This document shows positions 3,308-64,000 of a stretch of DNA of 64,000 bases, piece by piece. Below the pieces are notes generated by a model. That model worked only from the letters and a program-made list of their open reading frames with translations. It ran no database searches and was not told the DNA's origin. The position numbers and the translations under genes are program-made. The stretch is from Trebouxia sp. TZW2008 (taxonomy: Eukaryota > Chlorophyta > Trebouxiophyceae > Trebouxiales > Trebouxiaceae), in contig BDIU01000170.1 of NCBI GenBank assembly GCA_002118135.1, positions 1-64,000 of the forward strand, in the 5' to 3' direction. The stretch's first letter is position 1. Every line of letters starts with the position of its first letter.

Positions 3308-6300
3308 ATGGCCGCCAATGGCGGTGGTCAGCCTCATGCCGGCAGAAACAACATACAAGCCAGCAGAAATGGTGGCGACAACCTTGCCAGGATATTGGGC
3401 GACATGTCCAGGCCTGGCATCAGCCTGGAGAGAAGGAGGGACGGAGAAAGATCTCTGCGGGAGTACGTCGAAGCAGAGGCGAGAGACTTGTCCGGACAGC
3501 CCTTCTCGAAGTTCATGAACAACCTGTATGGCACTATACAGAGCCATATCAGCAGGTATGCCCCTGTAAGACATCTGCATGTACTGATGCCTCCTGAGCA
3601 GACCTGCTGATAGCATTTGCTGTGATGCAGCTCTGATCAGAATGAAAGGCTTGGTGGTGTGCTCTCTGTGGATGAGCTGATTGATGTCAAGGTAAGCATG
3701 CTCGAGTTTTCAGGCTAGACAAACCCAACTTACAGCATGCACTAACACGCTTTATCATGGCACAACCTGCTGAAGCTCATGCAAGCCTCATGCACAGCTG
3801 CAAGCTGCTGTCAGTGAGTGAGCCAATTGATGTCATCACCCATCACTTGCCGAGCTAGCCACATGGGTTCTGCTGCATGTCTGCACTCACTGCATCATGG
3901 CAACGCCTGCTGGAGCTCATGCAAAGCACCTGGTTCAATGATACAAAGTCTTGTCCAGTGCATAACATAGTCTGTGCAGTGCAGCTCTAGGTTCATGTTG
4001 ACCTCATGCACATGCACATGCAAATGATGATTGACTTCATGCATGCACAGATGCTCATGAGTCATGACCTTCATGTGCATGCACCTGCCCCTGAACCCCA
4101 TGCGCATGCACACAATCCTCATGCACAGGGACCCAAGCTGAACTCATTGCACAACAGACCATGTGAGGCATCTGCAGCTATCATATTAACCGCGGGGTCT
4201 GTCTACAGTTTTGGGGAGAGGACGCTGCCAAAATCAGCAACTTCTGCTTTGATGTTGAGCTCTTGCACACACAGACACACCTCATCCATTTGCACCTCGG
4301 CACAGTATGCATGCACGTGGACCAAAGCTACACTCAGTGCACAGCAGACAATGTTTTGGGCAGATTCTGTAGAAAATGCCGTTTTGGCAGGCTTTACTTT
4401 CTGAGGTCTGCATCTATCAGCCCTTCACTCTGCTTTAGGGCATGGGCTCAGCATTGCTGGCTAGCTCATTTCCCACTGTCAGCAGGCTGAATACAGCTTT
4501 TCATACCTAGGTTTAAGGTGGTAGTGATGTCGCAGCACTAGCATCTTCCTTCATTACATTTCCAGCATTTCTCGATGCTTTGCTGAGAACGTCAAAGACA
4601 ATTAAGGTTTGGTAGTGTGTCAGTGGCGTCGCAGCACCTCTCCCTCATGTCCCTAGCTATCCAGGTGCTCTGTTGACGCGTGCCAAGACAAGTTCGCATG
4701 CTTGTTATAGTTTAGGTGTGGCTTGCTTTGGTTTGTTGTTGATGTTGTCTGGTGACCCCCCTGTTGGGTCCCAAGGACAGTAAAATGCATTGATTGCAAA
4801 ATTGAATGTCAAATGCCCTCAGCCCTAATGTTAACCTCATGCACATGCACACCATCCTCCTGCTTGTGCGCGTGATCCTTGTGCACATGGACCAATGCTG
4901 ACTCTCAACGCACGACGCATTCATTCATTTCATTTCATTCATTGTAAACATGGGCTAGGCAGGCTCAGCAGGCCCATCTAGGTGCGTACAGAAGCAATCA
5001 ACTGGCTCCAACCAGTTCGATCATGTGCTAACCTAAAACGTCTCATGTCGTGGAACACATGCAACTTTCATGTTGACTATGGGGCTTTGTCTGCAGTTGC
5101 TGGGAGAGAATGCTGCCAAAATCAGCAACTTTGCCAGCTACCTACGCAGCGTCTTCAGGACAGACACAGATCCAGTCACTTTGGAAGTTGCAGCTGCAAC
5201 ACTAGGGCATCTGGTTCAGACAGGAGGTGCCTTGACTGCTGACGTGGTCGAGTATGAGGTGAGCTTCCAAAATTTGTGTGTTTGTGTGTTCAGTTTTACT
5301 CAATTGCACATCAGCATCTGCATCATGCAAGTACTTGGCCACTTGGTGCAAACAGGGGACGCTTTGACTGCTGATGTAATGTTAATGTTACATTAATGTT
5401 AATGTAATGGAGTATGAGGTGAGCGCCCATAGTTCATTGTACAGTAGCATCAATAGCATGCTATATCATCACCATTTTGAACAGACAGGGGCGCTTTGAC
5501 TGCTGATGTGATTGAGTATGAGGCAAGCTTCCAAAATGCGTTTGCAAGGCCAGTTTCATTCATTCTCACATTAAGATCTGCGTCTTACAACTACTTGGCC
5601 ACTTCGGTGGACACCGGGGGCACCTTGACTGCTGATGTAGCGGAGTACAAGGCGAGCTCAGAGTTACCTTTTACATTTGCATCAACATGATGCTACAACA
5701 TCACAACTTGGTGCAAACAGGTGGCGCCTTGAGACAGCTGATGTGGTTGAGTATAAGGTGAAATGCTGGAATCAATTGCCACAACTACATCAACATCATG
5801 CTCTGTGGTGCAACCGCATGCCCTGCAGATTAAATCTCAGTTGAACACTGGAGGTGGTAGCAGCCAAACTTGGCCACTTGGGTTCAGATGAAATGAAGGA
5901 AAGACAGGGCATGTTGCTCAGCCAATTCTGATCAACTGAGTGCAGGTCAAGCGCTCCTTGCATTGGCTGCCTGGCAATGTCTCATTGTAGGCATACCAAA
6001 GGGATTGGTACGTCTTTTTGTCTTTTCACCGAATTTTCCAAATCTTTTCTGGGTACTGGATATTCCCTATACCCCAAAATACCTTTTCCCTATACCCCGA
6101 AAACTGTTTTCCCTTAGGCCGAAGGGGTATAAAGAAAGATTTTCTGTATCCCAAGGGATACAATCTCATCATAAAAAGGGATACAAAATGCATTAGACCC
6201 AGAACGCTCATGTTGGCCTGCTAATGCTGAACTGTTGTATGCAGGTCAAACGCTCCTTGGACTGGCTGCGTGGAGAGAGCCAAGGCAACAGGCGCTATGC

Positions 6301-9300
6301 AGCAAAGCACATCTTGCAAGAGATGGCTGACTTTGAGCAATGATGACTTACGTTTTGTAGGTCAAGCATTCCTTGGACTGGCTGCGTGGAGAGAGCCAAG
6401 GCAACAGGCGCTATGCACCAAAGTCCATCTTGCAAGAGATGGCTGACTTTGAGCAATGATGACTTATGTTTTGTAGGTCAAGCGTTCCTTGGACTGGCTG
6501 CACGGTGAGAGCCAAGGCAACAGGCGCTATGCACCTGGGGACCGAGAGTGCCCTGCAGGTAGAGATGCCAACCTGCCATTATTGCCGTGCCAGCTATTTT
6601 CAAAGTTTGCTCAATCATCTGCAGGTCAAGCGTTCCTTGGACTGGTTGCGAGGCGAGAGCCAAGGTAACAGGCGCTATGCAGCAGTGCTCATTCTGCGGG
6701 AGATGGCGGAAAATGCACCAGCCGTCTTCAATGTGCACGTCAAGGGATTCATTGACATTGTGTGGGCTGGACTGAGAGATGCCAAAGTCATTGTCAGAGA
6801 AGCGTCGGTGGCGGCACTTAGGGTAAGCAAGCTCCGCCAGGGTTCAGATCTGCCAGGTTCTGCCATTGCATGAGTGAGCTTGCAAAGGCTTCCTTGTTTT
6901 GGCCAAATTCTGTCATTGCACAAGTGAGCATGTCATTTGTATCTGCCAAATGAGCATTGCAGCACTTGTGTATACACTATTTTTGCAAGGCATATCAAAC
7001 AATATTTCATGTCTGTCCTCCTGGCACCCAGAGTGAAGCGTTACTGCATGTTGCACGCATGTAGGGAATTGTGAGACTCGGCGTCGAGTGCAGTGGTACT
7101 GCTGCCTGATTCAGGAGACTCAGAGGGGCTTGACCCATTTCAGAAATCACACAGGACGTTTGTTTGATCCTCTGCTAATGGCATTGACAATGATGCTGCA
7201 TATTTGGCGATGCAGGCATGCCTGAAGTTGGTTGAGAAGCGTAAAACTCGGAAAAGAGTGCAGTGGTGTTACCGCCTATTTGAGGAGACTCAGAGAAGCC
7301 TGACCTGGTTCAATGTTTTACTGAATGTTTCTTGCCCCGTTATAACAGCATTGACAGTGCAGCTGCATGTTGCAGGCGTGTCTGAAGTTGATTGAGAAGC
7401 GTGAGACTCAATATAGAGTGCACTGGTACTACTGCCTGTTTGAAGAGACTCAGAGGGGCTTGACCTGGGGCACTTCTGTGGAATGTTCTCGCCCCTCTTA
7501 TGACGGCCTTGAAAATGCAGTTGCATGTTGCAGGCATGTTTGAAGCTGGTTGAGAAGCGTGAGACTCGGTACAGAGTGCAATGGTACTACCGCCTCTTTG
7601 AGGAGACTCAAAGGGGCTTGACCTGGGGCACTTCCGTAGAAGTGGTCCATGGCTCCCTGCTGGCCCTGGGAGAGCTGCTCCGCCACACAGGCATGTGGCC
7701 TTCTTGACTATATTGCAAACGTCATTTTATTATGCATATGTGTGCTTCTGTTGAGTACATGCATACGACACGCAAAAATGAGAGGAGTGAGAGGGGCTTG
7801 ACCCGGGGCACTTCTGTGGAAGTGATCCACGGCTCTCTACTGGCCCTGGGAGAGCTGCTCCGCCACACAGGCAAGACACATGTCATGAGCACACATGCTG
7901 AGCACTCATGCTGAGCACACATGCTGAGCTCACATGCTGAGCACACATGCTGAGACACACGCTAGCACAGAATCGTGAGATAGTCGACACAATTTTCAAT
8001 TTCCATAACAGCAAGGAACGGCTGATTAGGCCCGCAGTCATTTCCTTTCTGCCTGAAGATCAACATTCTGGGAACCTTCAGCATCATCATTGTCATAAGC
8101 ATGATTGTCACTGCTTGCACGCTGTTTTGCAGGGGAGTTCATGCTGGCTAGGTATCAGGAGGTGATGGAGACAATTCACCGCTTCTTAGAGAGAGCAACG
8201 AGCGCCTGATTAGGCGCACCATCCTCTCCTTACTGCCCAAACGTTGAGTTGCTGGGAATCATCATTATCGTTAGTCTCACAAGCAGTATCGCCACTGCTT
8301 GCACATTGTTTTGCAGGGGAGTTCATGTTGGCCCGGTATCGGGAGGTGGTAGAGACAGTTCTCCGCTTCCGAGAAAGCAAGGAGCGCCTGATTAGGCGCG
8401 CAGTGATCTCCCTGCTGCCCAAGCTTGCGGCCTTTGCTCCTGAGCGCTTTGCTGCAACCTATCTCAAGCAGTGCACCAACTACCTGCTGTCGGTGCTCAA
8501 GTTTCCATCTGAGAGAGGCGTAGGTAGGTGATTAAGGACAGTTCTGCATTGTTCATTTCTTGGAATTCCTGCATTGACAGCTGCAACCTTTCTGAAGCAG
8601 TGCACCAACTACCTGCTGTCAGTGCTCAAGTTTCCATCTGAGAGAGGCGTAGGTAGGTGATTAAGGACACTTCTGCATTGTTCATTTCTTGGAATTCCTG
8701 CATTGACAGCTGCAACCTTTCTGAAGCAGTGCACCAACTACCTGCTGTCAGTGCTCAATTTCCCATCTGAGCGACGCGTAGGTAGGCGGTGCTGCAACCT
8801 GCAAACTTGCTTTCAGCATTCAGCTTGGTGTAGAGAGGCTTTGGAGCAACAATCTCAAGCAGTGCACCAATAACCTCCTGCCAGTGATAAGTTCCCCTTC
8901 TGAGCAAGGTATAGGTAGAGTTCGCTGCAACCTATCTCAAGCAGCGCAACTTACATCAAGCAGTGCACCAATCACCTGCTGTCTGAGCCCAAGTTCCATC
9001 TGGTCAGCTTTTCTGCCATGTGTCCTGCAGGGTTCACAGCCCTAGGTGAAATAGCCATGGCTACACAGAGCAGGGCCAGAATTATTTATTGGGTCTGTAC
9101 GCCCATGGGTTGCAAAACAACTTGACCAGGCCATCAGCTTTCACAGCAGTACAATCTGCGCCAATACTCATGTCCAATTCTGCCCTACAGGGTTCACAGC
9201 CCTAGGCGAAATGGCCATGGCCCTAGCCAAGGTAGGGGCTCAATCAGTCATGGGGCCTTTGCTTCCTAGGGTGGCAGACCAAATCAAAGAGGCCATCAGC

Positions 9301-12300
9301 GTAAAGGGCAGAACTCGTCCAAACTGCCCTGAAGCCCTACAGTGTGTCGGGGTTCTGGCCCAAGCCCTCGGCAGTACTTGGAGAAATGAAGCAACTAGCT
9401 TGGTTCAACCTATGATGTCCACTGGCCTCTCCCAACCCTTAGTCAAAACCCTACAGGTGATTCACCTGTGCTTCACAAATACTTTGCCCATGTTCTGTAG
9501 GGTTTGATGACCATTGGGCTCTCGCAGCCTCTGATCCAAATCCTACAGGTAATTTGCCCAAGGCCCGAGGTAGGTTTGGACAAACTGCATCTGAGCATCA
9601 GAATGTCATGCCTGAGCCACAGCATTTGCTTCCAGGTAATCACAATCAGTGTCAAAAAGGCATTTGGCAGGGCCAACAGGGTCTTGAATGACAACAACCA
9701 TATGTGTTTGCCACCGTTTTGCATGCTCACTGGACAGGGTTTCAGCAACTTTTTGTTGATGTTGCAGGCCCTAGTGCATGCTCTGCCAAATTTGCTATCT
9801 AGCATCTAAATTCTTGTCATCAGGGGGGGGGACCCTGCAGGGCTCTCAAGACTCATGTTTGTGATAAAGCTGCAGTTGATGACTGCTGCCACAGCAAATC
9901 ACCTAAGCCAATTCTGCCCAATTTGCAGGCCCTGGTGCATGCCCTACCAGAGCTGCTACCAGTCATCCAGACTCACCTGCTGGACCTGCTCAGCTTAGGG
10001 CTTACACGCAAGCCCTATCGGGAGAACCTGTCAACTGCGACTTCACATTCCTTGACACAAGCCATTCAACTAGGTGACTTTACTATCACAGTGGATTGTC
10101 ATTGTTTGCTTTAGTCAGGAACGTTACATGCTACATGGATGCTTCATTTTGTTCATTCATGCTAAACGTGTCCTAGACAGGCTCAGCAGGCCCAGCTAGG
10201 TACGTACTGTAACAGCCAACTGTCTCCAACCAGTTTGGTCCTGTGCTATCCCAAACTTGGATTGACATGGACACTTAATTGCTTTCATCATCTGCAAGCA
10301 ATGAGTCATCAGTCTTGCAGGCCATTGTCATAAAGGGTGCTTTTGGGAATCTGCATTTGTCAAGAAAGGCGCATGCCACAAGAATGCTCGTTGGCTTTCA
10401 ACATTTTCTGGTAGAGACTTGTTAGCCTTGCGATTCATCAGCATACAGGTTGCAACTGGGCAGTCCTGTGATAATGTTTGTGATGTCATATGTTGTATGT
10501 GGTCATAAGTGTTGTATCACATGTAAGAATGCAATATTATCTCATTTGCCGAGTGTGTAATGTGTCATGAATTTGTAGTAACCCATGTGACACATGTGAT
10601 CAGCCTTGTTTGCTGGCACAAGCATGTGACATTTTTCTGATTTCACTACAAATAAACCCGGAAGGCCTTGCCCTGATCTGAGTAGGTTTTGCTGTGTTTA
10701 TGTACTCATCAAGTAAGTTACAGTCCTTGTCAATTGCCAGTGGCAATGGCAGTGCTGACATTTTGATGATGCTGCGCCAAATTTGAGTAGTTTTCCTATG
10801 TGTTTTTGTCCATGCAGTCACAGTCCTTGTCAATTGTCAGTAGAATTGTCAGTGCTCAACCCTAAACCGTGACATAATGCAGCACGCACAGCACAAAGCC
10901 TACTGTCAGTGGTCAGATATGCAAACGTTATATTTTGATAATGTGCCACAGGCGAGCTGCAAGGCCCTGCCCTGATCCGAGTAGCCCTTCTCACCTTGGG
11001 CACCTTTGACTTTGGGCAGCACAATCTGCTGGAGTTTGTGAAGGAGCATGTGATGGTTTACTTGGATGATCCAGATGTATCCATTCGAAAGTCGTCTGCT
11101 GCCGCTGCTGCGCAAGTGCTGCAAAGGCATGTGGCCAAGCATTTGCAAGGAGTTGATGGAATTCCCCTGAATGGCCACTATGTGCCCCTTCAAAATGTGA
11201 GTCGTGCTGTGCTGCGCTGTGCTATGCTGTGCTATGTTGTGCTATGCTGTGGTGCAAAGGAATAAGGCCAAGCGTCCGCAAGGAGTGAATGGATTCCCCT
11301 CAATGGTCTTCATGTGCCCCTTTCAAATGTAAGTCACGCTTTGCTGTGCTGCGTCGTGCGTGTGGTTGAGCATTGAGCAAGGAGGGAACAGAAACCCCCT
11401 CAATGGCCATTTCGTGCCCCATTCAAGAGTGAGTCACGCTGTGCTGTACTGTGCAAGTGATGACTGGGACTCTCCTGAATGGACACCAGGTTACCCTTTC
11501 AAATGTGAGCTGAGCTGTGCTGTGCTGCGCTGCGCTGCGCTGTGCTGCGCAAGTGCTGAATGGGACTTCCTTGACTGATCTTTATGCGCCCCTTGAGAAT
11601 TTGAGTCACGCTGTGCTGTGCTGTGCTGTGCTGTGCTGTGGCGCGCCGGGCTGTGCTGTGCTGTGCTCTGCTGCATGATTAGCATAACCCTGACTGTCTG
11701 TGCCACAACAGGGTGGGTCCAAAATACGTTTGGTAGAAGCAGTTGTGGAGAGGCTGTTATCATCAGCTGTGGCAGACATGGCTGTGTCAGTACGGCGTAC
11801 AGTGCTGGAGTCTATGAAGCAAATGTCCGATCTGGATTCCTACTTGGCCCAAGCAGACTGGTGAGCATCTTCATTCATCTGCACAGTCGGAAACCTGCGT
11901 GTGTGACCACATGGTTATGCATGCCTTCGATGTGAGATTCGTGTCCGTTTCATCAATGTGTCCAGTCTGAAGCACCACTTGGTTTGCAAGTCTATGTCCG
12001 TGACAGTGTGTAGTCTGAGGCATCATTTTGGTGGCCCTGAGTGATGAGGCCAAGCGTGTGAATTTACTGATACCTCAGCTTGTGTATGACCACACTTCCA
12101 TGAGTGTGTGCAGTCTGAGGCCCCTTGTTGTGGCCCTAAATGCTGAGGCTGGGGGAGTGAGGGCTCTGACCATCAGGGTGGTGAGGCGCCTGGCGGGGCG
12201 TAGTCCTGCTTATGTAATGCCAATCCTAACCCTGCCTGCCTGACGCTGAAGTTTCAAAACTTGACAATATGTCTGCGTGTGTGTGTGCAGTCTGAGGCCT

Positions 12301-27300: not shown

Positions 27301-30300
27301 CCCTTGTTGCTGTAGGTCAGTCAAGAGCTGATTTGCATCGCCATTCTGAGGCAAGAGGTATGGCATGAAGCACTAGAAGAGGCTAGCTGTAGCTCACTGA
27401 CAAATTCTCTCTTGACAGCGTCCTCTGCTGATGCTGTAGGTGAGACAAGAGCTGACTTGCATGGCCATTCTGTGGCACAAGATGTGGCAGAAAGCACCTG
27501 AATAACATCAAACCCATATTTTGCAGACTGTAGTTGTAATGGTTGCCTGGCACTGTAGGTCAGTCAAGAGCTGATCCGCATGGCCATCCTGTGGCATGAG
27601 ATGTGGCATGAAGCATTGGAAGAGGCCAGCAGGCAGTATTTTGGCGAATCCAATGTGGAGGCCATGCTAAACACCCTCATGCCATTGCACGAGATGATGC
27701 AAGCTAATGGGGGCATCACCCTCAAAGAGATTGCCTTTGTCAAGGTGAGACTGCTGCTCCTGTCTCATCAACCCACTTATGGGTTACAGGCAATGCAAAA
27801 ACACTTCTCTGCTGCATAGAAAGTGATGGCAAATCAAGTGTGGAGGCTATGCGGAACACCCTTATGCTCCTGCATGAGATGATGCAAGCCAATGGAGGGA
27901 GCACACTCGAAAAAGCCAGCACACTTGACTTGCCCTCGCCACGTGCAAAGCGTGCACGGCATGCTCTGACAGCGCATCATCACCACAGGCATGTGGCAGG
28001 GAGCTAGCAGACGCATATGAGTGGTGCAACAAGTTTTGTGTCAGCCAAAAGCAGGCAAAGAGCTGCACAATTGATTTGCCCTCACCAGACGCAAAGCTTT
28101 CAAAGCATGCTCTGACCGTGCATCATCACTGCAGGCATATGGCAGGGAGCTAGCAGAGGCATACGAGTGGTGCAACAAGTATCGTGTCAGTCAAAAGGAA
28201 GCGAAGAGCTGCACATTTGAATTGCCCTGACTACATGCAAAGCTTGCACAGCATGCTCTGACCATACATCATCACTACAGGCACATGGCAGGGAGCTAGC
28301 AGAGGCATACAAATGGTGCAACAAGTATCTTGTCAGCCGGAAAGAGGCAGAGCTGCGCATTTGACTTGCCCTCACCAGATGCAAAGCGTGCACAGCATGC
28401 TCTGACACTGTATCATCACTGCAGGCATACGGCAGCGAGCTAGCAGAGGCATACGAGTGGTGCAAAAAGTATCGTGTCAGTCAAAAGGAGGCGAAGAGCT
28501 GCACATTTGAATTGCTGTCACCGCATGCAAAGCGTGCACAAGCATGCTTTGACCGTGCATCATCACTGCAGGCATATGGCAGGGAGCTAGCAGAGGCATA
28601 CAAGTGGTGCAACAAGTATCTTGTCAGCCGGAAAGAGGCAGAGCTGCGCATTTGACTTGCCCTCACCAGATGCAAAGCGTGCACAGCATGCTCTGACACT
28701 GTATCATCACTGCAGGCATATGGCAGGGAGCTAGCAGAGGCACACAAGTGGTGCAACAAGTATCGTGTCAGTCAAAAGGAGGCGAAGAGCTGCACATTTG
28801 ACTTGCCATCACCGCATGCAAAGAGTGCACAGCATGCTTTGACCACACATCATCACTGCAGGCATACGGCAGGGAGCTGGCAGAGGCATATGAGTGGTGC
28901 AACAAGTACCGTGTCAGCAGAAAGGAGGCAGAGTTACATCAAGCCTGGGACCTGTACTACCACGTCTTCAAGCGCATCAATAAGCAGCTGCCCAGCCTCA
29001 CTGTGCTGGAGGTGCAGTACGTGGCGCCAGCTCTTGTCAGGGCACAGGTGAGAGATGTTCACGCGCAATGCAACAGTAAAAGTTATGAACAGGTCAGAGC
29101 TGCATCAAGCCTGGGACCTGCGGTCCCACGTCTTCAAGCGCATCAACAAGCAGCTGCCCAGCCTCACTGTGCTGGAGGTGCAGTACGTGGCGCCAGCTCT
29201 TGTCAGAGCACAGGTCAGAGGCAACAATATACTTGCATGCAATGTGGTGAGTCATGATTGGCAGTCAAAGGCCAGATCTCCAAGGCTTTGACAGTGGGCA
29301 TCCACTGACGTCACCGCCTTGTCCCACTTTTGAGTGCATACAAAAAATTGCAGCATGCGCAACATGCTGCTTCATTGCAGATTTGCAGACTCTGCCGGCC
29401 GCCTCACACAATCTTGAAGCTTTGTGCGTGCAGAATATTGCATCACATGTCTTTACCTGCCTGTGTCATGACATGCAAAAGTATGCACTCCTTTTGTAGA
29501 ACGCTTTTATCTGTTTGAGCTCAAACGTGACACCTGTTGTTTGCAGGGCCTAGAGTTGGCTGTACCTGGCACATACATAGCAGGGGAGCCTGTGGTCACC
29601 ATTGCGGCCTTTGCGCCCCAGCTGCATGTCATCACCAGCAAACAGCGGCCTCGTAAGCTGACTATTCATGGTAGTGATGGCGCTGAGTACGTCTTCCTCC
29701 TCAAGGTCAGTAGTATCTTTTGCTTACAGCAGCGGCAACTTGTTAGTTTATTTGGGAAGGTCAGATAGCGGTAGCTGCAGACCTGCTTGCTAAGTGTATC
29801 CGCTTGCTGTGACAGACCAACTCAACATTATACGACGCATTCTGTCTGTCAGTACGTACCCTGATGCTTGCCACACCTGACAGCAGAAGAACTGACATGT
29901 GCACCCAGAGGGACATCAACTTCTGCGAAGGGTCAGGACATGTGACAGGCGCACTGCATGGGAGTTGCAGGCATCATGAGCATGTTTGTCTCCAAGAGGA
30001 AAACCTGTGTTCCTGTAAGCAGAAGCAGCCTGGGATCAGGAATCAGTCAATGCAGAGTTCCTGCCTGTTGTTCTTTTGCAGGGGCATGAGGACTTGCGGC
30101 AAGATGAGTGTGTGATGCAGCTGTTTGGCCTGGTCAATAGCATGCTGGCCAATGATTGCACAATAACAGAGCAGGATCATGCACAAGTCTGAATTCTGAT
30201 TGCTGCAGGGACATGAGGACCTGAGGCAGGACGAGCGAGTGATGCAGCCGTTTGGAATTTGCATTGGCATACAGCAGCACATGACCTCAGCCTGTAGCCA

Positions 30301-33300
30301 GATATGCAGTCATACCCTTGTTCACTGCATGTGGCAGCTGTAACGTGTGTTCTCTTTTGCAGGGGCATGAGGACTTGCGGTGATGCAGCTGTTTGGCCTG
30401 GTCAATAGCATGCTGGCCAATGATTGCACAATAACAGAGCATGATCATGCACAAGTCTGAATTCTGATTGCTGCAGGGACATGAGGACCTGAGGCAGGAC
30501 GAGCGAGTGATGCAGCCGTTTGGAATTTGCATTGGCATACAGCAGCATATGACCTCAGCCTGTAGCCAGATATGCAGTCATACCCTTGTTCACTGCATGT
30601 GGCAGCTGTAATGTGTGTTCTCTTTTGCAGGGGCATGAGGACTTGAGGCAAGATCAAAGGGTGATGCAGCTGTTTGGCCTGGTCAACCATATGCTGGCCG
30701 ATGATTGCACAATAACAGAGCGTGACCATCAGCAAGTCTGACTTTCTGACTGTTGCAGGGGCATGAAGATCTGAGGCAGGATGAACGTGTGATGCAGCTG
30801 TTTGGCCTGGTCAACAGCATGCTGGCTAATGACCGCACAACAGCAGAGCGTGATCTCAGCATAGCAAGATATGCGGTCATACCATTGTCGCCAAATTCGG
30901 GGTTGATTGGCTGGGTGCCCAATACAGACACCTTGCATGCACTCATCAGGTTTGACACCCTCCTTCCCTCCCCCCTCCCTGAACCCCTGAACAACCTGCA
31001 ATTTTTAATGTGCTGTGACGGCATTATAGCGGTGCCTAGCATAGCCAGATATGCGATCATCCCCCGCCCCCAACACACGTATGTTGAATGCTACCCCTTC
31101 CTAAAAGGCAATGTGCAATCGTGTCTCATCAACATCTGCATGCTTGACTAGACAGGAATCTTACAATCATGTACTGCACCGACTTCCTTGCAAGCAGGTC
31201 TGGCCTGACTGGACATGTACAGCATTGGCACAAGGCATGAGGTACACAATTGTTTCCTTTCTGTGCTGCTGGTGAAGCAAGTGCTTACAATGCAAGTGCT
31301 TACAATGCCAGATGCTTATGCTGTAAATGTCTGAACAGGGCAAGGCCAGCTTTGGGTCCTGTTGACAGCAGACTGCTCTGATGCTGCGAGCACATGATTC
31401 AGACGGAACATTGAGCTCAACTGTAGCTGTTTGCGCTGTGCCAACATTGCAACATTAAGCGTATGCCATTTCTACTTTGTCCTTGATGTCTCTTGCTGTT
31501 TCATGTAATTTGCCATGTTATTGTCTGTTTGTGGCATTTTGAGGTGAGAAGGTGCCTGCAGGGAGTACCGTGATGCGCGCAAGATCCCACTGAATGTGGA
31601 GCACCGCATGATGCTGGGCATGGCGCCTGATTACGATCACCTCATGGTCATCCAGAAAGTGGAAGTCTTCCAACATGCTCTTGACTCCACCTCAGGTCAG
31701 TAAGTCAAACAACCTCCGGGCTGTTTCTACTCACAGAGAGTCGTGTTGTCTCAATCAATCAACAATCAATAGCATTTACAGTCCTGGGTAGGGGAGCCAG
31801 ATGTGACTCATTGGACTTCCTGGCTTGGAAGCACAGGTTTCAATGCCTAACCGCATGCAGCTCTGTCTTGCCAAGCAAACACCTGGCATGCCATCCAACA
31901 CAGGTAAGCTGCGCATGCAACTGGCCTAGTGCACCTAGCTCTAGATGTGCCCATAATTGCTGCAGGTGAGGAACTTCACAGAATGCTGTGGGTTGGCAGC
32001 CACGTCACAGAGGCTGAGTCGCAATAGTGAAGTGTGGCTGGAGCGACGCACAGGCTATACACGTAGCGGCGCAGTAATGAGCATGGTGGAATACCTGCTG
32101 GGCCTGAAAACTTGTTGCAATTACATTGCTTATTGTTGTCAGTTCCTCATGCAGGCGAGGATCTACATAGGATGCTGTGGCTGAAGAGTCGCAACAGTGA
32201 AGTGTGGTTGGAGCGACGGACAGGCTACACGCGCAGCAGTGCTGTGATGAGCATGGTGGGGTACTTACTGGGCCTCGGGGACCGCCACCCCTCCAACCTC
32301 ATGTTGGACCGCTACTCTGGCAAGCTGCTGCATATTGACTTTGGCGACTGCTTTGAGGTAAGCTGTGTCTTGATCACAGCTCTCTCAGCCGTATAAGTGC
32401 GTCTCTGGCATGCACGTGCGCAGCAGCGCTGTGATGAGCATGGTGGGTAATCTGCTGGGCCTTGGGGACCGCCATCCCTCTAACCTCATGCTGGATTGGT
32501 GCTGTGGCAAGCTGCTGCACATTGACTTTGGCGACTGCTTTGAGGTAGGCTGTGCCCAACAGACGCTCTGTGAATGTACAGGGGTTGTGTTTGTAGCTCA
32601 CACATTTGCATAGCATGAACATGCAACAACTTTCTGCTGTGGCACGCTGCTGCACATTGACTTCAGGTTGTGGTTGCCACCCCTCCAACAGCATGCTGGA
32701 TCACTACTCTGGCAAGCTGCTGCACATTGACTTTGGCAACTACATATGTATGATGTGTGTATCGCAGCTCTATCAAATGCATAGGTCCTGCTGCGCCTTG
32801 TGCTGCACACTGATTGTGAAGCTGCTTTCAAAGCTTCAAGACTACTTGCAAGTGAGCACCAACTCCAACATCTCTGAAAGCACTACATGGCAACAATCTG
32901 CAGCACATGAGGTGCTGGATTTTCTCAACAGTCGCCGATAGCATCATGCAGCAGTCACCCGGCAGTCAGCTGCAGCATGTGAGGTGCTCGCTTTGCTCAA
33001 CAGTTGCTGGTGATATCGCGCAACAGTCACACAGGCAGGCAGCTGCAGGTTGACATCAGCAAGTGCTGAGAGAAAAGCCACAGCATACGCTCTCAGCTCG
33101 CTCAATAAGCTTGATGATTAGTAACACATGCACTGCTGCATGTACACACTTACTCTTCAGAACGCACATGCACGGCAGCATGCAACCTGTCATAAGCTCA
33201 ATAAACATTTGATTTGAAAGCTAGAATCCTGACCAGCTGCTCGTTGCTGTGAGACACATAGCATCAGATGTCCTTTTAGGCTAGCAAGGTATCCATTCAA

Positions 33301-36202
33301 TTCAGTCCAACTGCGTGCTGGACCACCTCAGCAGGCCCAGCTAAATACATAATGGAGCAACCAAGTGTCTCCAACCAGTTTGGTCCTGTGCTAACCTGAA
33401 CCATTGGTGTTGGACATGGAGGGAGGAGAGGTCCTTGTGCACGGTTGTCCGCCACATGTCTGAGGAAGTTCAATGAATCATAAGTAGCTCCCGTCCCCAA
33501 AGTGAACATCCTATTATCCTCAAATTTCCTTCTCTTTCAGCATCATACCTTGTACCATAACGTGGCTGTCATGCTGTGATGCAGGCAAGCATGGATTGCG
33601 AGAAGCTTCTGAGAAGGTGCTATTCAGGCTGACATGCATGATGACTAAATTCACGAGACCGTACCTGTTGTGCTGTGATGCAGGCCAGCATGAACCGCGA
33701 GAAGTTTCCTGAGAAGGTGCCGTTCAGGCTGACACGCATGATGACTAAAGCCATGGAGGTGTCAGGCATTGAGGGCAACTTCCGGTATGACTGCTCTTGT
33801 ATACCCGCCAGCTCTCATAGTTGCAATCATGACCTGGGCTTTGTTGCTTATTGTCTGGTCAAGCTTTTGTTTTTGCAATGTTTTTCAGTTGCAGAAGTCT
33901 TGACAGATTCATTATGCAGCAATGGCTTTGAATCTCTGCCTGGACAATGTGTATCTGCATCCAACAGCATTGCAGCAGACTGCCGTCAGCTTGCAGAGGC
34001 CATATGTGCTCTGAATCGCATAAGCAGCCATCACAGAGCTGTTTGATGACATTGAAGCTTGCACCACGGCATGCTGTTTGTGTAGCGTGGTGCACCTGTC
34101 AAATGCCAGACCTGCTGCTTGCAAAATGTCAAGTCTACTGTTTCACCTGCAAGAATGCAGCAGGAATGTCGCAACACAAGGTCATGTCTTTGCTACTGCA
34201 TGGATGGAAAAGTGCCATGCCGGCGTGAACTGAGCAATTGTGATCTGAGCAATTGTGATGCTTGTGGCTAGCAGCACAGGCAGCTTCATTTATTTGCCAG
34301 CCACGCAGTTTGCTGTCTTGACATCTTTGTACCCACTTTCTGCTGTGCCTTGCAGTTTCACCAGTGAGATCGTGACGCGCAGCAACACAGCTCACATCAT
34401 GCTCACACAGATGTCAGCTATCATGTCTGCTGTGCAGAGACCTTCTTCTGTGGCTGTGATGTTTTGCTTCTTGTGTCAGGCCCATTTTCCGCTGTGCTGT
34501 GCATGTATAACTGTGAGAATGTGATGCTGGTGCTGCACAGCAACAAAGCCAACACCAGGCTTATGCAGTTGCTGACTGCTGTCCAGGAATCTTCACACCC
34601 ACCTTCCGGTGTGCTATGCAAATCCGCCTATCAGAATGTGATGCATAGCTGCACGGCAAGAAAGCCAACACCATGCCCTGTCTGCTGCCCACAGATCTTC
34701 ATGCACACCTGTGGCTGTGCTATGCAGGTTCACCTGTGAGATTGCGATGAGCGTGCTGCAAAGCAACCAAGCCATGCAATGCTCAATACAAGTGCTGTGT
34801 GTTGTCCAAAGAGGTGTATGCCTAGCTTGTGCTGTGCTGTGTAGGTTTACCTGTGAGAACGTGATGCGGGTGCTGCGCAGCAACAAAGACAGTGTCATGG
34901 CTATGCTGGAAGCCTTTGTACATGACCCCTTGATCAACTGGCGTCTGCTCAACACCACAACAGATGCTGTTGATGCCAACACACCCACTGGGGAATCAGG
35001 TGGGTGCAGCCGCTTTGACCCACGCCTTGAAGTCATTCACTGCTCAATGACTGGAAACATGTTTGCACATCGAAAGCTTTTGTGCATGCTGCCTTGATCA
35101 ACTGGCCTGCTGAACACCACAATAGGAGTCAATGTACCTGCAGGGGAGTCAGGTGTGTATTTTGTTTTTTACCTTTTGCTCACAAGGTCTCAGGAAGATG
35201 GGGAGCAGCATTGCACACAAAGTTTATGTGCACGTGCCTTCACAGCATCGACAAAGCTTGCTTTGGGACAGCAGCAGCACTTGCCTTTCATGCTTGAGTG
35301 GACTGCTTTCTTTCATTTGTCTGTCTAAGTCTAAAGACGAATTTCCTCCTTTGCTTCAATACACTGTCTGGTGCTTGTGTCTCCACGGCATGTTGGGCCT
35401 GAGTCTGGCATGCTTTGTAGATAATGCAGCGCCTGAAAGAATTACATCTTTCATTGTGCTCAGGTCTGACATGGGTTTTGAACATGCAGCTCTTGAGAAT
35501 ATACCAGAGCATTCATTGTGCTCAACTCTGACATGCATTCTGAAAGTGTATCGCTAGAAAACATATAGAGCATTCATTGGGCTGAAGTCTTGATATACTA
35601 TGTGAACATGCAGCGCTTGAAAACATTCCAGAGCACACACCAAGCACATGTCTGACATGTTTTGTGAGCATGCAGCCCTTGAAGGCATCCTATATTTCAT
35701 CATGCTCAAGTCTGATAAGTTTTGTGACCATGCAGCGCTCAAGAATATTCCAGAGCACTCGTTGGGCTCCAGTGTGGCATGTTGTGTGAACATGCAGGCG
35801 CTTGCAAAGATTGCATCTTTCATGGCGCTCAAGTCTGACACATTTTGTGAACATGCAGCCCTTGAAAACATTCCAGAGCGCACATCAGGGGCAAGCGGAG
35901 GCAGTGGCAAGGGATCAGACCCAAATGTGGCGCCAAGCCTGCCAAGGCGAGAAGCCAGAGAGCGGGAACTTTTGAATGCATATGGACAGCTCGGGGATGC
36001 AAATGAAGTCCTGAATGAAAGGGCAGTGGCTGTCATGAAACGCATGAGTGACAAGCTGACTGGCAGAGACTTTTCGCAAGAAGGCATGCCAAACAGTGGA
36101 GACAGCGATAGTGTGCAATCCCAAGTGCAGCGACTCATCATGCAAGCCACAGCACATGACAACTTGTGTCAGTCCTACATTGGCTGGTGTCCGTTCTGGT
36201 GA
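3308..36202 (+). CDS. TOR: Target of rapamycin (TOR) serine/threonine protein kinase
   Basis: PI3K-like protein kinase, core of TOR complexes, coupling nutrients to growth in the cytosol. Forty exons join in phase to 7548 nt (2515 residues; human mTOR has 2549): 3308-3555, 3631-3691, 5097-5258, 6625-6822, 7534-7690, 8317-8523, 9191-9456, 9929-10073, 10952-11196, 11712-11860, 12291-12469, 12699-13045, 13852-14128, 14544-14758, 14998-15300, 15803-15899, 16478-16710, 17346-17532, 18131-18303, 18912-19117, 19424-19613, 19913-20031, 20367-20513, 20897-21000, 21350-21698, 21919-22080, 22692-22881, 23851-23961, 24454-24556, 25298-25446, 26095-26304, 27559-27744, 28862-29047, 29547-29705, 30759-30949, 31562-31695, 32155-32357, 33684-33784, 34845-34999, 35859-36202. 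All introns end in AG. Donors are GT except GC at 7691, 15301 and 19118. Every exon could be placed in order against TOR proteins known from other organisms. The start is the first ATG of the conserved frame. Confidence 0.96.
3692..5096 (+). repeat. TOR intron 2: CATGCA-rich tract and copy of exon 3 start
   Basis: Positions about 3990-4130 and 4838-4885 are dense in alternating CATGCA/CACATG words. At 4197-4247 a copy of the first part of exon 3 (5097 on) occurs with its acceptor, including the segment for AAKISNF, with frame changes. A dispersed repeat copy is at 4928-5040. Confidence 0.6.
4928..5040 (+). mobile_element. Dispersed repeat, possible tRNA-derived SINE (copy 1)
   Basis: It shares a block with the sequences at 10141-10255, 18487-18562 (inverted) and 33295-33405. 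The word AGGCTCAGCAGG (4961-4972) resembles a tRNA A box. GTTCGATC (5015-5022), 42 bases later, resembles a B box. No clear tail or target duplication was found. Confidence 0.5.
5340..5762 (+). repeat. Four copies of the 3' edge of TOR exon 3
   Basis: The last 40-60 bases of exon 3, coding for [10 protein letters not shown] and followed by the donor, recur at about 5345-5425, 5485-5527, 5596-5655 and 5703-5764. They carry small insertions and substitutions and lie downstream of the exon. Confidence 0.8.
5944..6540 (+). repeat. Four copies of the 5' edge of TOR exon 4
   Basis: Copies begin with an acceptor-like GCAG or TAG and the codons for VKRSLDWL at about 5946, 6245, 6361 and 6479, before the real exon at 6625. 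The copies at 6245 and 6361 share about 100 nearly identical bases. All lack the rest of the exon. Confidence 0.85.
6040..6190. repeat. AT-rich block with palindromes in TOR intron 3
   Basis: The block differs in composition from its surroundings and repeats CCCTATACCCC and GGGATACAA words. TGTATCCCAAGGGATACA (6145-6162) is a perfect palindrome around AA. It may be a small foldback insertion; ends and target duplication are not clear. Confidence 0.4.
7055..7482 (+). repeat. Three copies of the 5' part of TOR exon 5
   Basis: Copies at about 7061-7137, 7214-7312 and 7378-7482 encode variants of [15 protein letters not shown] and [10 protein letters not shown], each after an acceptor-like TGCAG or similar. 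The real exon begins at 7534. Spacing is about 160 bases. Confidence 0.85.
7783..7958 (+). repeat. Copy of TOR exon 5 3' half, then a 13-base tandem repeat
   Basis: Positions 7783-7870 repeat the second half of exon 5 ([19 protein letters not shown]) and end before GCAAGA, a plausible GC donor. At about 7890-7958 the word ACACATGCTGAGC recurs about five times with variation. Confidence 0.75.
7975..8246 (+). repeat. Two copies of the 5' part of TOR exon 6
   Basis: Fragments at about 7978-8055 and 8131-8246 repeat the exon 6 start ([18 protein letters not shown]). They are followed by the same TTTTGCAG acceptor environment as the real exon at 8317. The first has lost its beginning. Confidence 0.8.
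8524..9000 (+). repeat. Four copies of the 3' edge of TOR exon 6
   Basis: The end of exon 6 ([15 protein letters not shown]) with its GTAGGTAG donor recurs at about 8580, 8709, 8848 and 8935. The first two copies form a 129-base tandem repeat, nearly identical from the GTGATTAAGGACA word after the donor. The last two are more decayed. Confidence 0.85.
9023..9815 (+). repeat. Edge copies of TOR exons 7 and 8
   Basis: At 9029-9075 the start of exon 7 (GFTALGE) is repeated upstream of the real exon, with an in-frame stop. At 9500-9548 the exon 7 end (GLSQPL) is repeated downstream. At 9763-9810 the start of exon 8 (ALVHALP) is repeated upstream of the real exon at 9929. Confidence 0.75.
10141..10255 (+). 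mobile_element. Dispersed repeat, possible tRNA-derived SINE (copy 2)
   Basis: A-box-like AGGCTCAGCAGG is at 10179-10190 and GTTTGGTC at 10233-10240, with the same 42-base spacing as copy 1. The block between them, including AGCTAGGTACGTACTG, is shared with copy 3. Confidence 0.5.
10141..10951 (+). repeat. TOR intron 8: dispersed repeat and decayed copy of exon 9 start
   Basis: A dispersed-repeat copy occupies about 10141-10255. A decayed copy of the first 40 bases of exon 9 (the part around GPALIRV) is at about 10655-10700. The rest of the intron shows no recognisable coding content. Confidence 0.5.
11197..11680 (+). repeat. Copies of TOR exon 9 end joined to (CTGTG)n tracts
   Basis: After the real donor at 11197 comes a run of CTGTG/CTATG pentamers. 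The exon end (PLNGHYVPL) with its GTGAGT-like donor then recurs at about 11265-11330, 11370-11432, 11466-11507 and 11550-11602. Each copy is followed by more pentamers, and the last run reaches about 11670. Confidence 0.85.
12003..12240 (+). repeat. Copies of the 5' part of TOR exon 11
   Basis: A short copy at 12007-12058 and a long one at 12107-12235 precede the real exon at 12291. The long copy keeps 40 codons open ([14 protein letters not shown] through [10 protein letters not shown]) behind a TGTGTGCAG acceptor. Confidence 0.85.
13139..13206 (+). repeat. Copy of the 3' edge of TOR exon 12
   Basis: The last 65 bases of exon 12 ([15 protein letters not shown]) and a GTATGT donor are repeated 159 bases downstream. 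The final 45 bases are almost unchanged. Confidence 0.85.
13488..13851 (+). repeat. Two tandem copies of the 5' edge of TOR exon 13
   Basis: Copies of the start (VIESTGV) lie at 13494 and 13678, ahead of the real exon at 13852, with periods of 184 and 174 bases. The spacer, with its GTGTAGCAAGATGTGTAGCA word, is repeated too, so the unit covers intron plus exon head. Confidence 0.85.
14879..14965 (+). repeat. Copy of an internal part of TOR exon 15
   Basis: About 60 bases matching the exon 15 segment for [17 protein letters not shown] are found upstream of the exon, with frame changes. Unlike most copies, this one comes from the exon interior. Confidence 0.7.
15548..15790 (+). repeat. Three copies of the 5' part of TOR exon 16
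   Basis: The start of exon 16 ([11 protein letters not shown]), each time after a TCTGCAG-like acceptor, recurs at about 15551, 15649 and 15699, before the real exon at 15803. Period is about 100 bases. Confidence 0.85.
16305..16440 (+). repeat. Copy of the 5' half of TOR exon 17
   Basis: About 125 bases at 16311-16435 repeat the exon 17 start (16478 on), including its CAGGTCCGGGGGT acceptor. It has a frame-breaking change and an in-frame stop. Confidence 0.85.
17165..18050 (+). repeat. Copies flanking TOR exon 18 on both sides
   Basis: One copy of the exon head (IMAKHRMA) is upstream at 17168-17240. Three copies of the tail ([18 protein letters not shown]) are downstream at about 17610-17700, 17757-17885 and 17970-18045. 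The middle tail copy is open for more than 40 codons. Confidence 0.85.
18487..18562 (-). mobile_element. Dispersed repeat, possible tRNA-derived SINE (copy 3, inverted)
   Basis: The reverse complement reads through the A-box-like word (18553-18542), then AGCTAGGTACGTACTG, then TTTGGTCCTGTG. It is therefore the same element inserted in opposite orientation, within TOR intron 19. Confidence 0.5.
18705..19275 (+). repeat. Near full-length copy of TOR exon 20; partial copy of exon 21
   Basis: Positions 18707-18880 are a decayed copy of most of exon 20 ([22 protein letters not shown]) with a deletion. At 19217-19275 the start of exon 21 is copied ahead of the real exon at 19424. Confidence 0.75.
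19676..19755 (+). repeat. Copy of the 3' part of TOR exon 21
   Basis: The segment for [15 protein letters not shown] is repeated downstream of the exon, with a small insertion that breaks the frame. Confidence 0.65.
20233..20830 (+). repeat. Copies of the heads of TOR exons 23 and 24
   Basis: At about 20233-20275 the first 40 bases of exon 23 are repeated upstream of 20367. At 20763-20826 the first 64 bases of exon 24 ([14 protein letters not shown]) are repeated with few changes after a TTGCAG acceptor, 134 bases before the real exon. Confidence 0.85.
21235..21335 (+). repeat. CATGACCCC low-complexity tract
   Basis: Several CATGACC/CACCTGACC words occur in the intron just before exon 25. 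The tract is pyrimidine-rich and may act as the polypyrimidine stretch for the acceptor at 21349. Confidence 0.5.
22525..23325 (+). repeat. Copies around TOR exon 27
   Basis: A short copy of the exon head (LES region) is at about 22529-22560. Downstream, the tail ([16 protein letters not shown]) and the following intron are repeated in tandem at about 22943, 23078 and 23249, with a partial unit near 23211. Spacing is about 135-170 bases, and the copies keep the GAGGTCTGTTG donor context. Confidence 0.85.
25050..25245 (+). repeat. Two copies of the 5' part of TOR exon 30
   Basis: A short copy at about 25060-25110 and a longer one at 25150-25240 repeat the head of exon 30 ([23 protein letters not shown]). 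The longer copy has one base missing relative to the exon frame. Confidence 0.8.
25903..27100 (+). repeat. Copies on both sides of TOR exon 31
   Basis: One head copy precedes the exon (25906-25990). Five tail copies follow, starting near 26391, 26551, 26738, 26825 and 27011. They repeat the segment for SQSSFRRAA and [10 protein letters not shown] and the donor GTAAGT, and alternate with a repeated spacer rich in GTCTGTCTCA. Confidence 0.85.
27313..27500 (+). repeat. Two copies of the 5' edge of TOR exon 32
   Basis: The FRB exon head ([20 protein letters not shown]) recurs at about 27316-27390 and 27440-27500, each after a TGTAG acceptor, before the real exon at 27559. Confidence 0.85.
27830..27920 (+). 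repeat. Copy of the 3' part of TOR exon 32
   Basis: The segment for [22 protein letters not shown] is repeated about 180 bases downstream of its source, with a shifted frame at its end. Confidence 0.8.
27985..28861 (+). repeat. Six tandem copies of the head of TOR exon 33
   Basis: Units start at 27989, 28134, 28281, 28424, 28572 and 28716, and the real exon starts at 28862, so periods are 143-148 bases. Each has CAG followed by codons for [19 protein letters not shown], then about 70 bases of intron. Alternate units resemble each other more (period about 291), giving a two-unit higher-order array. Confidence 0.92.
29095..29213 (+). repeat. Copy of the 3' two-thirds of TOR exon 33
   Basis: It contains 39 intact codons from the FRB end (HQAWDL through APALVRAQ) and a GTCAGA donor. 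The only notable protein change is LYYHV to LRSHV. If the local acceptor were used it would be in the wrong frame. Confidence 0.85.
30079..30758 (+). repeat. Five tandem copies of the head of TOR exon 35
   Basis: Starts are 30082, 30209, 30363, 30477 and 30631, then the real exon at 30759. Odd and even copies form two types, so the array repeats as a 268-282 base dimer. About 175 bases from 30188 and from 30456 differ at only two positions. Confidence 0.92.
31020..31075 (+). repeat. Copy of an internal part of TOR exon 35
   Basis: The segment for SIARYAVIP recurs downstream of the exon as SIARYAIIP, without a donor. Confidence 0.65.
31960..32745 (+). repeat. Copies on both sides of TOR exon 37 (catalytic loop exon)
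   Basis: The head copy at 31967-32106 precedes the exon. Tail copies follow at 32419-32545 and, more decayed, at 32640-32745. The 32419 copy keeps [12 protein letters not shown] and HIDFGDCFE intact with a GTAGGC donor. Confidence 0.88.
33295..33405 (+). mobile_element. Dispersed repeat, possible tRNA-derived SINE (copy 4)
   Basis: CTCAGCAGGCCCAGCTA is followed by CTCCAACCAGTTTGGTCCTG, matching copies 1 and 2. The A-box-like part is more decayed. It lies in TOR intron 37. Confidence 0.45.
33580..33660 (+). repeat. Copy of TOR exon 38
   Basis: About 75 bases covering most of exon 38, with the TGTGATGCAG acceptor, are repeated 98 bases upstream. A deletion breaks the frame. Confidence 0.85.
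34340..35155 (+). repeat. Copies on both sides of TOR exon 39
   Basis: Head copies ([10 protein letters not shown] and variants) lie at about 34355, 34505, 34622 and 34729, with a period near 120 bases. A tail copy ([10 protein letters not shown] to GES) is at 35090-35150. Confidence 0.85.
35405..35858 (+). repeat. Tandem copies of the acceptor region of TOR exon 40
   Basis: A unit of about 65-80 bases containing TTTTGTGAACATGCAG, codons like ALENIPEHS and a CTCAAGTCTGACAT spacer repeats about six times up to the real acceptor. Confidence 0.85.
35859..36202 (+). other. TOR: TOR FATC exon and stop codon
   Basis: The last exon ends with SYIGWCPFW and TGA at 36200-36202, the hallmark of the TOR FATC domain. 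Upstream is a Gly/Ser-rich, then charged linker that is poorly conserved. The acceptor is uncertain: AG ends at 35858, 35876 and 35888 would all keep the reading frame, because all three are in the same phase. I chose 35859 since it has the best upstream sequence (TTTTGTGAACATGCAG). Confidence 0.9.
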
Positions 36203-62784: not shown

Positions 62785-64000
62785 ATGGCGCTGCTGCTCA
62801 GCAGAACGTCTTTCAGACCACTTGCCGCAAGCGTATGGCTTGGTAGGCCAAGCGTGACTTGCTTCCGAAACGCACGGAGTCCATCTCGGACCTTAGTTAC
62901 TCGAGTGGCCCCTGCGTTGACCAACCTCAAACAGTGGCATTGCCAGCACCATACTCGTCTTGGTGCTCCTCAGCCCCGTCGCTATGCATCTGCATTTGCA
63001 GCAACCCAGGAAGTCGAGGCTTCAGCGGATACACGGCCTAAAGTGGTGTTTCTTGGCACGCCAGAGGTGATCAGTAGCTGCTGTCAACTTGCTGTCAGCC
63101 TCATAGTCCATGGACTCGACGCCCCTTGTAGGTGGCTGCAGATGTTCTATTCAGGCTTCTTAAAGCATGTCAACAGCCCAGTACAAAGTTTCAGGTGGAC
63201 TATACGCTCCACACTGCTGCTAGACTTGTTCACAAAACAGGTCGACAATGACATCTCAATTTTGTGACAAGCAAGTTTCGGGTGTCATGTAGATAGCAGC
63301 AGTAGTTAGCCAGCCAGGCACAGCGCGCAAGCCCACCAAAAGCGGCGCAGAAAGACCTCCACTACCTCACCCAGTCCAAGTGCTAGCAGAAGAATGGCTC
63401 CATCCGGATCGAGTGTTGATGCCAGAAAAGGCCTCAGATGTGCGCTTTCTGCTCCAATCCACCTACTGTCCTCTCACAGCTTTCCTGCATGACCATTGCA
63501 GAAGCCATCAGGGTGCAGGGGACTGATATCTTTTCATAGCTTTCTGCATGACCATTGCAAAAGCCGGCACGGAACAGGGGCTTGTTGTTCTTTCATGGCT
63601 TTCTGGATCTTTCTGCATGACCATTGCAGAATCTATCATCAGGATGCATGGGGACTCATGGCCGGCTAGCGTCTATTGTGGGCTTTTTGAAGCACGCAAG
63701 CAAATCAACTCATATATGTCTTTCTGGCTTGCCTGTCGTGAGTCAGACGCATGGCCCCTCGTCTCCTGTTTCGCATGACAAGACACTGATGAGTCAACGC
63801 ATTCTTGTGTACTGTGTGATCTTGCTTCACATGTTCAGGCACCATAACACCTGCTGCGTGTTGATTCCCATGCTAACTCCTGCTGTTTAAAATCTATGTA
63901 ACACCTGTGTAACACCTGTGCAACACCTATGTAATACCTGCATAACAGCTGTGTAACAGCCTGTGTTGCACTTGACGACATCAGTGAGTCAGGACGCCCT
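62785..64000 (+). CDS. Methionyl-tRNA formyltransferase, organellar (5' part)
   Basis: Exon 1 (62785-63066) encodes 94 residues: a Ser/Arg/Ala-rich transit peptide, then RPKVVFLGTPE, the start of the formyltransferase fold. A probable exon 2 is 63195-63240 (VDYTLHTAARLVHK) and exon 3 about 63297-63439 (AAVVSQPGTARKPTKSG, HPVQVLAEEW, LMPEKASD), followed by GTGCGC. These match the N-terminal nucleotide-binding half of bacterial Fmt (GTPEF, VVTQPDRPAGR, PEKARD). The enzyme formylates Met-tRNA for initiation in mitochondria or plastids. The catalytic Asn-His-Asp part must lie beyond the window. The acceptor of exon 3 is ambiguous (63297 or 63300). Confidence 0.82.
63470..63650 (+). repeat. Three tandem units in the formyltransferase intron
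   Basis: The words CTTTCTGCATGACCATTGCA and AGGGTGCAGGGG or variants recur near 63480, 63538 and 63610, each with an acceptor-like TTGCAG. They may be copies of the head of the next exon, which is outside or poorly visible. Confidence 0.6.
63892..63970 (+). repeat. (TGTAACACC)n short tandem repeat
   Basis: About six degenerate units of 11-12 bases (TGTAACACCTG, TGCAACACCTA) occur near the window end. Confidence 0.7.

Follow-up and report, generated by a model that had tools for sequence, protein, structure and literature searches.

The window, that is, the whole stretch of 64,000 nucleotides analysed here, belongs to a genome of 68.5 Mb in 527 contigs. A gene for the TOR kinase lies on its forward strand at positions 3308 to 36202. 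These limits, already given in the original prediction, were confirmed by a spliced alignment of protein P0001 from Trebouxia sp. C0005 to positions 3201-36500, which divided the gene into 40 exons and 39 introns, encoding 2515 amino acids in a frame open without a stop. Identity with P0001 is 94.3% over 2513 aligned residues; the aligned coding sequence ends at 36199, where a stop codon follows, and PF00454 also matches the kinase exons. The splice sites are canonical except for the GC donors of exons 5, 15 and 20 (3 of the 39 introns). The gene is poor in CpG (observed/expected 0.43 in exons and 0.32 in introns) and has an excess of TG and CA (1.5-1.7), a composition that resembles the outcome of CpG methylation and deamination. 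The best organism-named relatives of the TOR protein, as of the PRP8 and VPS41 proteins considered below, are from Trebouxia, so that the genome is probably that of a Trebouxia-like lichen photobiont. A genome of Trebouxia 'A48' (69.1 Mb, 49.7% GC) has been described; in the available main text on it, the word 'intron' occurs once and 'exon' never (PMC12712428).

Edges of the TOR exons recur in the introns that flank them. When every TOR exon was compared by blastn with every TOR intron, with at least 40 bits as the main threshold, a match was observed for 36 of the 78 adjacent exon/intron pairs and for none of the 1482 non-adjacent pairs. Minus-strand matches at this threshold were absent from all 1560 pairs. 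At 30 bits or more, the plus strand gave 39/78 adjacent and 1/1482 non-adjacent pairs, and the minus strand 0/78 and 1/1482. The absence of matches between non-neighbours rules out a mobile element as the source of the copies, and the claim that each cluster derives from its own adjacent exon, without a common mobile element, is upheld. Copies were found in 28 of the 39 introns at 40 bits or more and in 31 at 30 bits or more, in agreement with the predicted figure of about 30 clusters. The accompanying expression 'nearly every' is slightly strong, since 11 of the 39 introns have no copy at 40 bits or more. At this threshold, the upstream exon is copied in 12 introns and the downstream exon in 24 (P 0.065 for the donor/acceptor asymmetry). 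Recognised copies account for 5610 of the 25347 intron bases (22%), and longer introns hold more copies (Spearman 0.65), as expected if the copies enlarge the introns, another part of the original prediction.

The copies are direct and local, and most of them reach a splice junction. Among 71 exon-intron matches of at least 38 bits (copies derived from one exon not being mutually independent), 58 extend to the exon edge, 39 on the acceptor side and 19 on the donor side, and 13 fall short of it. From each copied junction, the following one lies at a median of 156 bp, and at 60-220 bp for 50 of the 58 junction copies. Comparison of the window with itself likewise gave 119 direct pairs, 116 of them at most 1 kb apart and 2 more than 10 kb apart, and 10 inverted pairs, all but one of which are separated by more than 10 kb. 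After dinucleotide shuffling, once per 10-kb stretch, no repeat pair was found in 23 stretches. Complete head-to-tail arrays that include the intron part occur, for instance, at exons 6, 27, 31, 33 and 35 (Table 1), and whole-unit pairs, with 50-90 nt of intron, are present at 11 of 30 TOR exon edges. At most clusters the match is limited to the exon part and a few bases past the splice site. The copies differ from the real exon by 4-32%, through substitutions and indels, which agrees with the graded decay noticed at the outset. Spliced RNA is ruled out as the template, because the intron-side AG or GT can be read on the copies.

Table 1. Exon-edge copies and other local repeats in the window
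Feature	Position	Strand	Remarks
Exon 33 start, acceptor-side array: six intronic copies of exon start (68-72 nt) and intron end	27919-28933	+	Period 144-147 bp; ends in real exon 33 (28862-29047)
Exon 33 end, donor-side copy, 119 nt, 93% identical, with GT	29095-29220	+	Intron part after GT unrecognisable
Exon 6 end, donor-side array, two intronic copies	8451-8786	+	Period 129 bp
Exon 27 end, donor-side array, three intronic copies	22799-23331	+	Periods 131-169 bp
Exon 31 end, donor-side array, four edge copies in intron 31	26188-27105	+	
Exon 35 start, acceptor-side array	30072-30888	+	Ends in real exon (30759-30949)
Exon 4 start, three copies then real exon	6240-6710	+	Real exon from 6625
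Exon 5 start, three copies then real exon	7046-7641	+	Real exon 7534-7690
Exon 5 end, donor-side copy	7782-7873	+	
Exon 11 start copy, 108 exon nt and 13 intron nt, 89%	12101-12221	+	Partner 12278-12398
Exon 17 start copy, 118 exon nt and 14 intron nt, 84%	16297-16428	+	Partner 16464-16595
Exon 18 start copy, 65 exon nt and 4 intron nt, 90%	17165-17233	+	Partner 17342-17410
Exon 24 start copy, 67 exon nt and 8 intron nt, 92%	20755-20829	+	Partner 20889-20963
Exon 37 end, donor-side copy, 127 exon nt and 10 intron nt, 88%	32418-32554	+	Partner 32231-32367
Purely intronic local duplication, 72-bp unit	32898-33048	+	One of three in TOR
Other two purely intronic local duplications	10716-10856; 35403-35875	+	The latter adjoins exon 40
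Repeat clusters outside TOR, examples	43848-44570; 57018-58125; 58677-58954; 59332-59673; 63474-63659		

The pattern is not confined to TOR. Positions 20001-30000 were sought in 20 contigs and exist in 17; local direct repeats occur in 16 of these 17 stretches of 10 kb, with a coverage of 0-38% (mean of the listed values 14%), and local inverted repeats in 3. In the TOR blocks of the window the coverage is 27-38%. The few local inverted repeats of the sample are carried solely by loci L011, L019 and L020, which are repeat-rich (coverage 0.31-0.38). In 256 kb, 134 independent clusters were counted, with a median offset of 147 bp and an offset of 60-220 bp in 124 of them; identity is below 90% in most. 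This median is near one nucleosome length, which may be a coincidence. Within the window, further clusters of direct repeats with a like period are found at 36500-64000, outside TOR (Table 1). Comparison of eight open frames of this region with Pfam gave a single, sub-threshold match: a 290-aa open frame on the minus strand (53860-54729) weakly resembles the cellulose-binding family CBM_2 (E 6e-4, 20.6 bits for a cut-off of 24 bits).

Gene structures rest on three modelled genes, TOR, PRP8 and VPS41, one of them modelled only partly. PRP8 has 29 exons (96.3% identity over the model, with a poor last exon at 63%) and carries copies in 3 of its 28 introns. VPS41, the locus of which was selected as repeat-rich and the model of which is incomplete at the start and poor in the first two and last exons, shows copies, when the full model is used, in 6 of its 11 introns; one adjacent pair is on the minus strand. 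Non-adjacent matches of at least 40 bits were found in 0 of 756 pairs for PRP8 and 0 of 110 for VPS41. Hence, exon-edge copying is not peculiar to TOR, but it is uneven among genes. Outside the modelled genes, shared splice-like sites were looked for at cluster ends without annotation and found in 32 of 75 clusters, as against 35.5% in the control, by a test that assigned the correct strand to only 25 of 43 TOR clusters.

The copies bear possible traces of constraint. Measured against the real exon, they show differences at 11.9% of first, 8.5% of second and 23.4% of third codon positions. CpG decay was rejected as the source of the high third-position difference, since the pattern persists without CpG, TpG and CpA contexts (0.133, 0.079, 0.276). 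Restricted to codons with a single difference, the nonsynonymous/synonymous ratio equals 0.28 for TOR (0.23-0.36 by bootstrap over 27 exons) and 0.21 for VPS41, whereas simulated neutral copies give 0.50-0.52 if silent exon sites evolve at the neutral rate and 0.69 if they evolve half as fast. By the raw counts, the ratio rises to about 0.42 when all changed codons are included. Eight recent copy-copy pairs differ in a 12:4:13 proportion by codon position, which is near neutral.

Such a ratio might suggest that the copies are coding, for instance as alternative or mutually exclusive exons. This is very improbable. At 324 amino-acid differences, the C0005 protein sides with the real exon 309 times, with the copy 3 times and with neither 12 times: the real exon is the coding copy, and the copies are not coding now. 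Indels in the copies are frame-breaking in 38 of 46 cases, and the offsets between junctions are blind to the frame (22:17:19 for a remainder of 0, 1 and 2); these two features argue against a present coding role, and the latter rules out in-frame inclusion of the copies. Tandem exon duplication with mutually exclusive splicing is likewise ruled out by the partial nature of the copies, by the frame-breaking indels and by the location of the amino-acid changes in the copies.

Splice sites are mostly retained in the copies. In TOR and VPS41 together, 36 of 41 acceptor copies have AG, and 24 of 26 donor copies have GT or GC; as far as sequence can tell, the predicted decoy splice sites would thus be present. 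In the acceptor copies, identity over positions -15 to -6 is only 58%. On the exon side, divergence is lowest in the first 10 nt from the junction (0.098 versus 0.115-0.208 deeper in). Retention of the splice-site core would also be expected of a neutral copy that evolves as slowly as the exon part (0.05-0.085 per site). A weak constraint at the RNA level, acting on the splice site and the nearby exon, would be the best, though tentative, reading of these data. As a separate observation, 26 of 66 exons (TOR and PRP8 acceptors) begin with GT, so that AG/GT spans the acceptor. An acceptor-side copy exists for all 12 TOR exons starting with GT as compared with 12 of the 27 others (Fisher P 0.0009, in a test chosen post hoc); in PRP8, 14 of 28 exons start with GT and none of the 14 has such a copy. 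Because the test was post hoc and because of the PRP8 result, no claim of recursive splicing at AG/GT is drawn.

Considering these properties, several origins may be envisaged. The copies would be trivial if they were an artefact of assembly, but this is barely credible in view of their 4-32% divergence from the exon, of the identity below 90% in most of the 134 clusters and of the adjacent-only pattern in three genes. A simple model, the original prediction in its plain form, would be that tandem duplications occur at random anywhere in the gene, that those breaking an exon are purged and that the rest decay neutrally. Locality, orientation, unit size, arrays and graded divergence all fit this model, and amino-acid changes nearly all located in the copy (all but 15 of 324) are what unconstrained copies would show. 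Its expectations were obtained by simulation of 1500 tandem duplications of 60-220 bp at random positions in TOR with shuffled introns, followed by identical detection; duplications inside exons or enclosing whole exons were discarded, ages were assumed to be spread evenly between 0 and 0.3 changes per site, and a single rate was used for copy and intron. Under these assumptions, the detected events comprised 605 purely intronic ones and 389 at junctions, a ratio of 1.56 purely intronic events per junction duplication (about 61% purely intronic). In the real gene, by contrast, 3 of 102 pairs are purely intronic, and the purely intronic clusters, which include one next to exon 40, number three against 36 exon/intron pairs (P 4.5e-12 against the simulation). 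Purely intronic duplications look scarce even among whole-unit tandem repeats. The model also fails for the intron half of the duplicated units. When the intron stretch implied by each junction copy was aligned to that of its partner, arrays being kept, it was recognisable (z of at least 5) in 17 of 55 TOR copies, three further copies having too little intron for the test, whereas 52 were expected if it had diverged only as fast as the exon part of its pair. In VPS41, the figures are 1 of 8 and 7.5. Median estimated divergence is 0.58 for the intron part and 0.14 for the exon part; the intron part has been lost faster. Finally, the ratio of 0.28 falls under the neutral floor of 0.50. Random duplication with neutral decay is therefore already disfavoured, and we regard it as quite unlikely. 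The original prediction of tandem duplication across exon-intron junctions stands as to direct orientation, short distances and whole-unit arrays, but, as a full account, it fails on the scarcity of purely intronic duplications and on the missing intron halves. As these two observations, together with too few amino-acid changes, indicate, exon edges are either specially copied or specially kept.

Special copying would mean that the process itself is restricted to exon edges, starting or ending at the splice junction and taking little intron along, for instance at breaks or nicks guided by exon nucleosomes, R-loops or splicing intermediates. In this case, homology ending at the splice site would be explained, as would the few purely intronic duplications and perhaps, coincidence apart, a median unit close to one nucleosome. 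Indeed, 21 of the 22 nearest pairs at 82-94% identity extend at most 20 nt into the intron, in a count that drops alignment arms longer than 300 nt, i.e. long arrays, and is thereby biased toward an exon-edge reading; the conclusion is unchanged by the intron-half comparison, in which arrays were kept. However, whole-unit arrays with their intron part exist, and the splice-site AG or GT on the copies shows that the template was not spliced RNA. Moreover, a faint similarity persists in the intron part: for the 40 junction copies with z below 5 in that part, mean z is 1.05 +- 0.23 against a position-matched null. Because of this residue, the duplicated units were probably not devoid of intron from the start but did include some, which diverged later. 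A ratio below 0.5 would also be left unexplained, and restriction of the copying to exon edges is on balance unlikely, though less so than random duplication. Special keeping could in turn result from gene conversion, by which the exon-like stretch of each copy would be renewed from the real exon, the intron part being too diverged to recombine any more. With a length of about 100 bp and a spacing of 100-200 bp, the repeats would lend themselves to it, and the exon part does look young and the intron part old, with the reverse in some mosaic-like pairs, as at exon 13. By reasoning, however, conversion should homogenise intron parts equally well or better and should give a ratio of 0.5 or more rather than 0.28; we consider it improbable, more so than random duplication.

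The explanation that we favour, tentatively and with a probability of about 0.4, is that of tandem duplication across the junction followed by preferential keeping of the exon edge as a weakly selected decoy. Short tandem duplications with a unit of about 60-220 bp would arise across exon-intron junctions, possibly by fill-in of staggered breaks and end joining, and would be tolerated because the outermost splice site still yields the correct mRNA. The exon-like part and the splice-site core would then stay closer to the real exon than the adjoining intron part. The simplest cause of this retention would be weak selection on a copy that stays splice-competent and acts as a splicing decoy, the intron part being free to diverge; both the selection and any effect on splicing are here inferred. 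Against this explanation speak the near-neutral recent copy pairs, the ratio of about 0.42 with all codons counted, the few copies in PRP8 and the fact that neutral copies, too, would retain the splice-site core. In addition, keeping old copies leaves unexplained the scarcity of purely intronic whole-unit repeats. One may go further and imagine that exon edges are copied genome-wide into their own introns and kept under selection as splice-competent decoys, so that many introns would hold several spare junctions, possibly governing intron retention. We hold this wider view to be doubtful, and a link of such intron retention to the drying and wetting of lichens would be pure speculation.

Single duplications crossing a junction are already known, one in print being that of potato. 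In the RdRp gene of this plant, a single duplication across an intron-exon boundary created a new intron (PMC4974935). As in TOR, the duplication is direct and takes the 3' splice site and the exon start along; the first intron of the potato gene contains an additional tandem duplication of 83 bp. TOR shares with this model of intron gain the junction-crossing duplication itself, in 58 junction copies and with whole units at 11 edges. However, the potato duplication was a single one and, as RNA-seq proved, gave rise to a new intron that is spliced and to an inserted piece of exon, whereas the TOR copies lie inside existing introns, affect 28 of 39 of them and leave the protein length unchanged relative to P0001, the gene model being accounted for without any new intron between copies. 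Regarding the chemistry, complementary overhangs that are filled in and then undergo end joining have been reported to yield small tandem duplications (PMC8355091). The TOR copies, which are short, direct and head-to-tail, resemble these products, so that fill-in is a candidate origin; the 60-220 bp size would fit either such fill-in at staggered breaks or a nucleosome-sized interval. In that study, however, the induced overhangs were shorter, and its available text describes no exon-edge preference.

As to possible effects, unspliced intronic 'decoy exons' can hold an intron back in human genes (PMC12017769). The TOR copies resemble them as exon-like intronic sequences that bear a splice site, lie in longer introns and stay outside the coding mRNA. 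The human decoy exons were shown to bind splicing factors and to detain the intron, whereas the TOR copies are candidate decoys by their AG, GT or GC only; an origin by copying from the neighbouring exon is not described for decoy exons in the available text (PMC12017769). With introners, the TOR copies have in common a mass change of intron content in algae, but, as far as the source seen goes, introners spread one family across many introns (PMC9860276), whereas nothing is common to non-neighbours in TOR. Introners are ruled out here by matches to adjacent exons only and by just 2 direct and 9 inverted self-matches of the window more than 10 kb apart. A literature search that covered few subscription journals found no report of a comparable density of exon-edge copies.

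With 58 junction copies in one conserved gene, the duplication model of intron growth and gain becomes open to statistical study. The question is also raised of how the spliceosome tells the proper junction from the many that nearly match it. Should selection be what maintains the copies, decoys derived from exons would add a layer to splicing control that is general in this group. In this context, the present genome is an unusually rich setting for the study of how introns grow and of how a cell copes with false splice sites.
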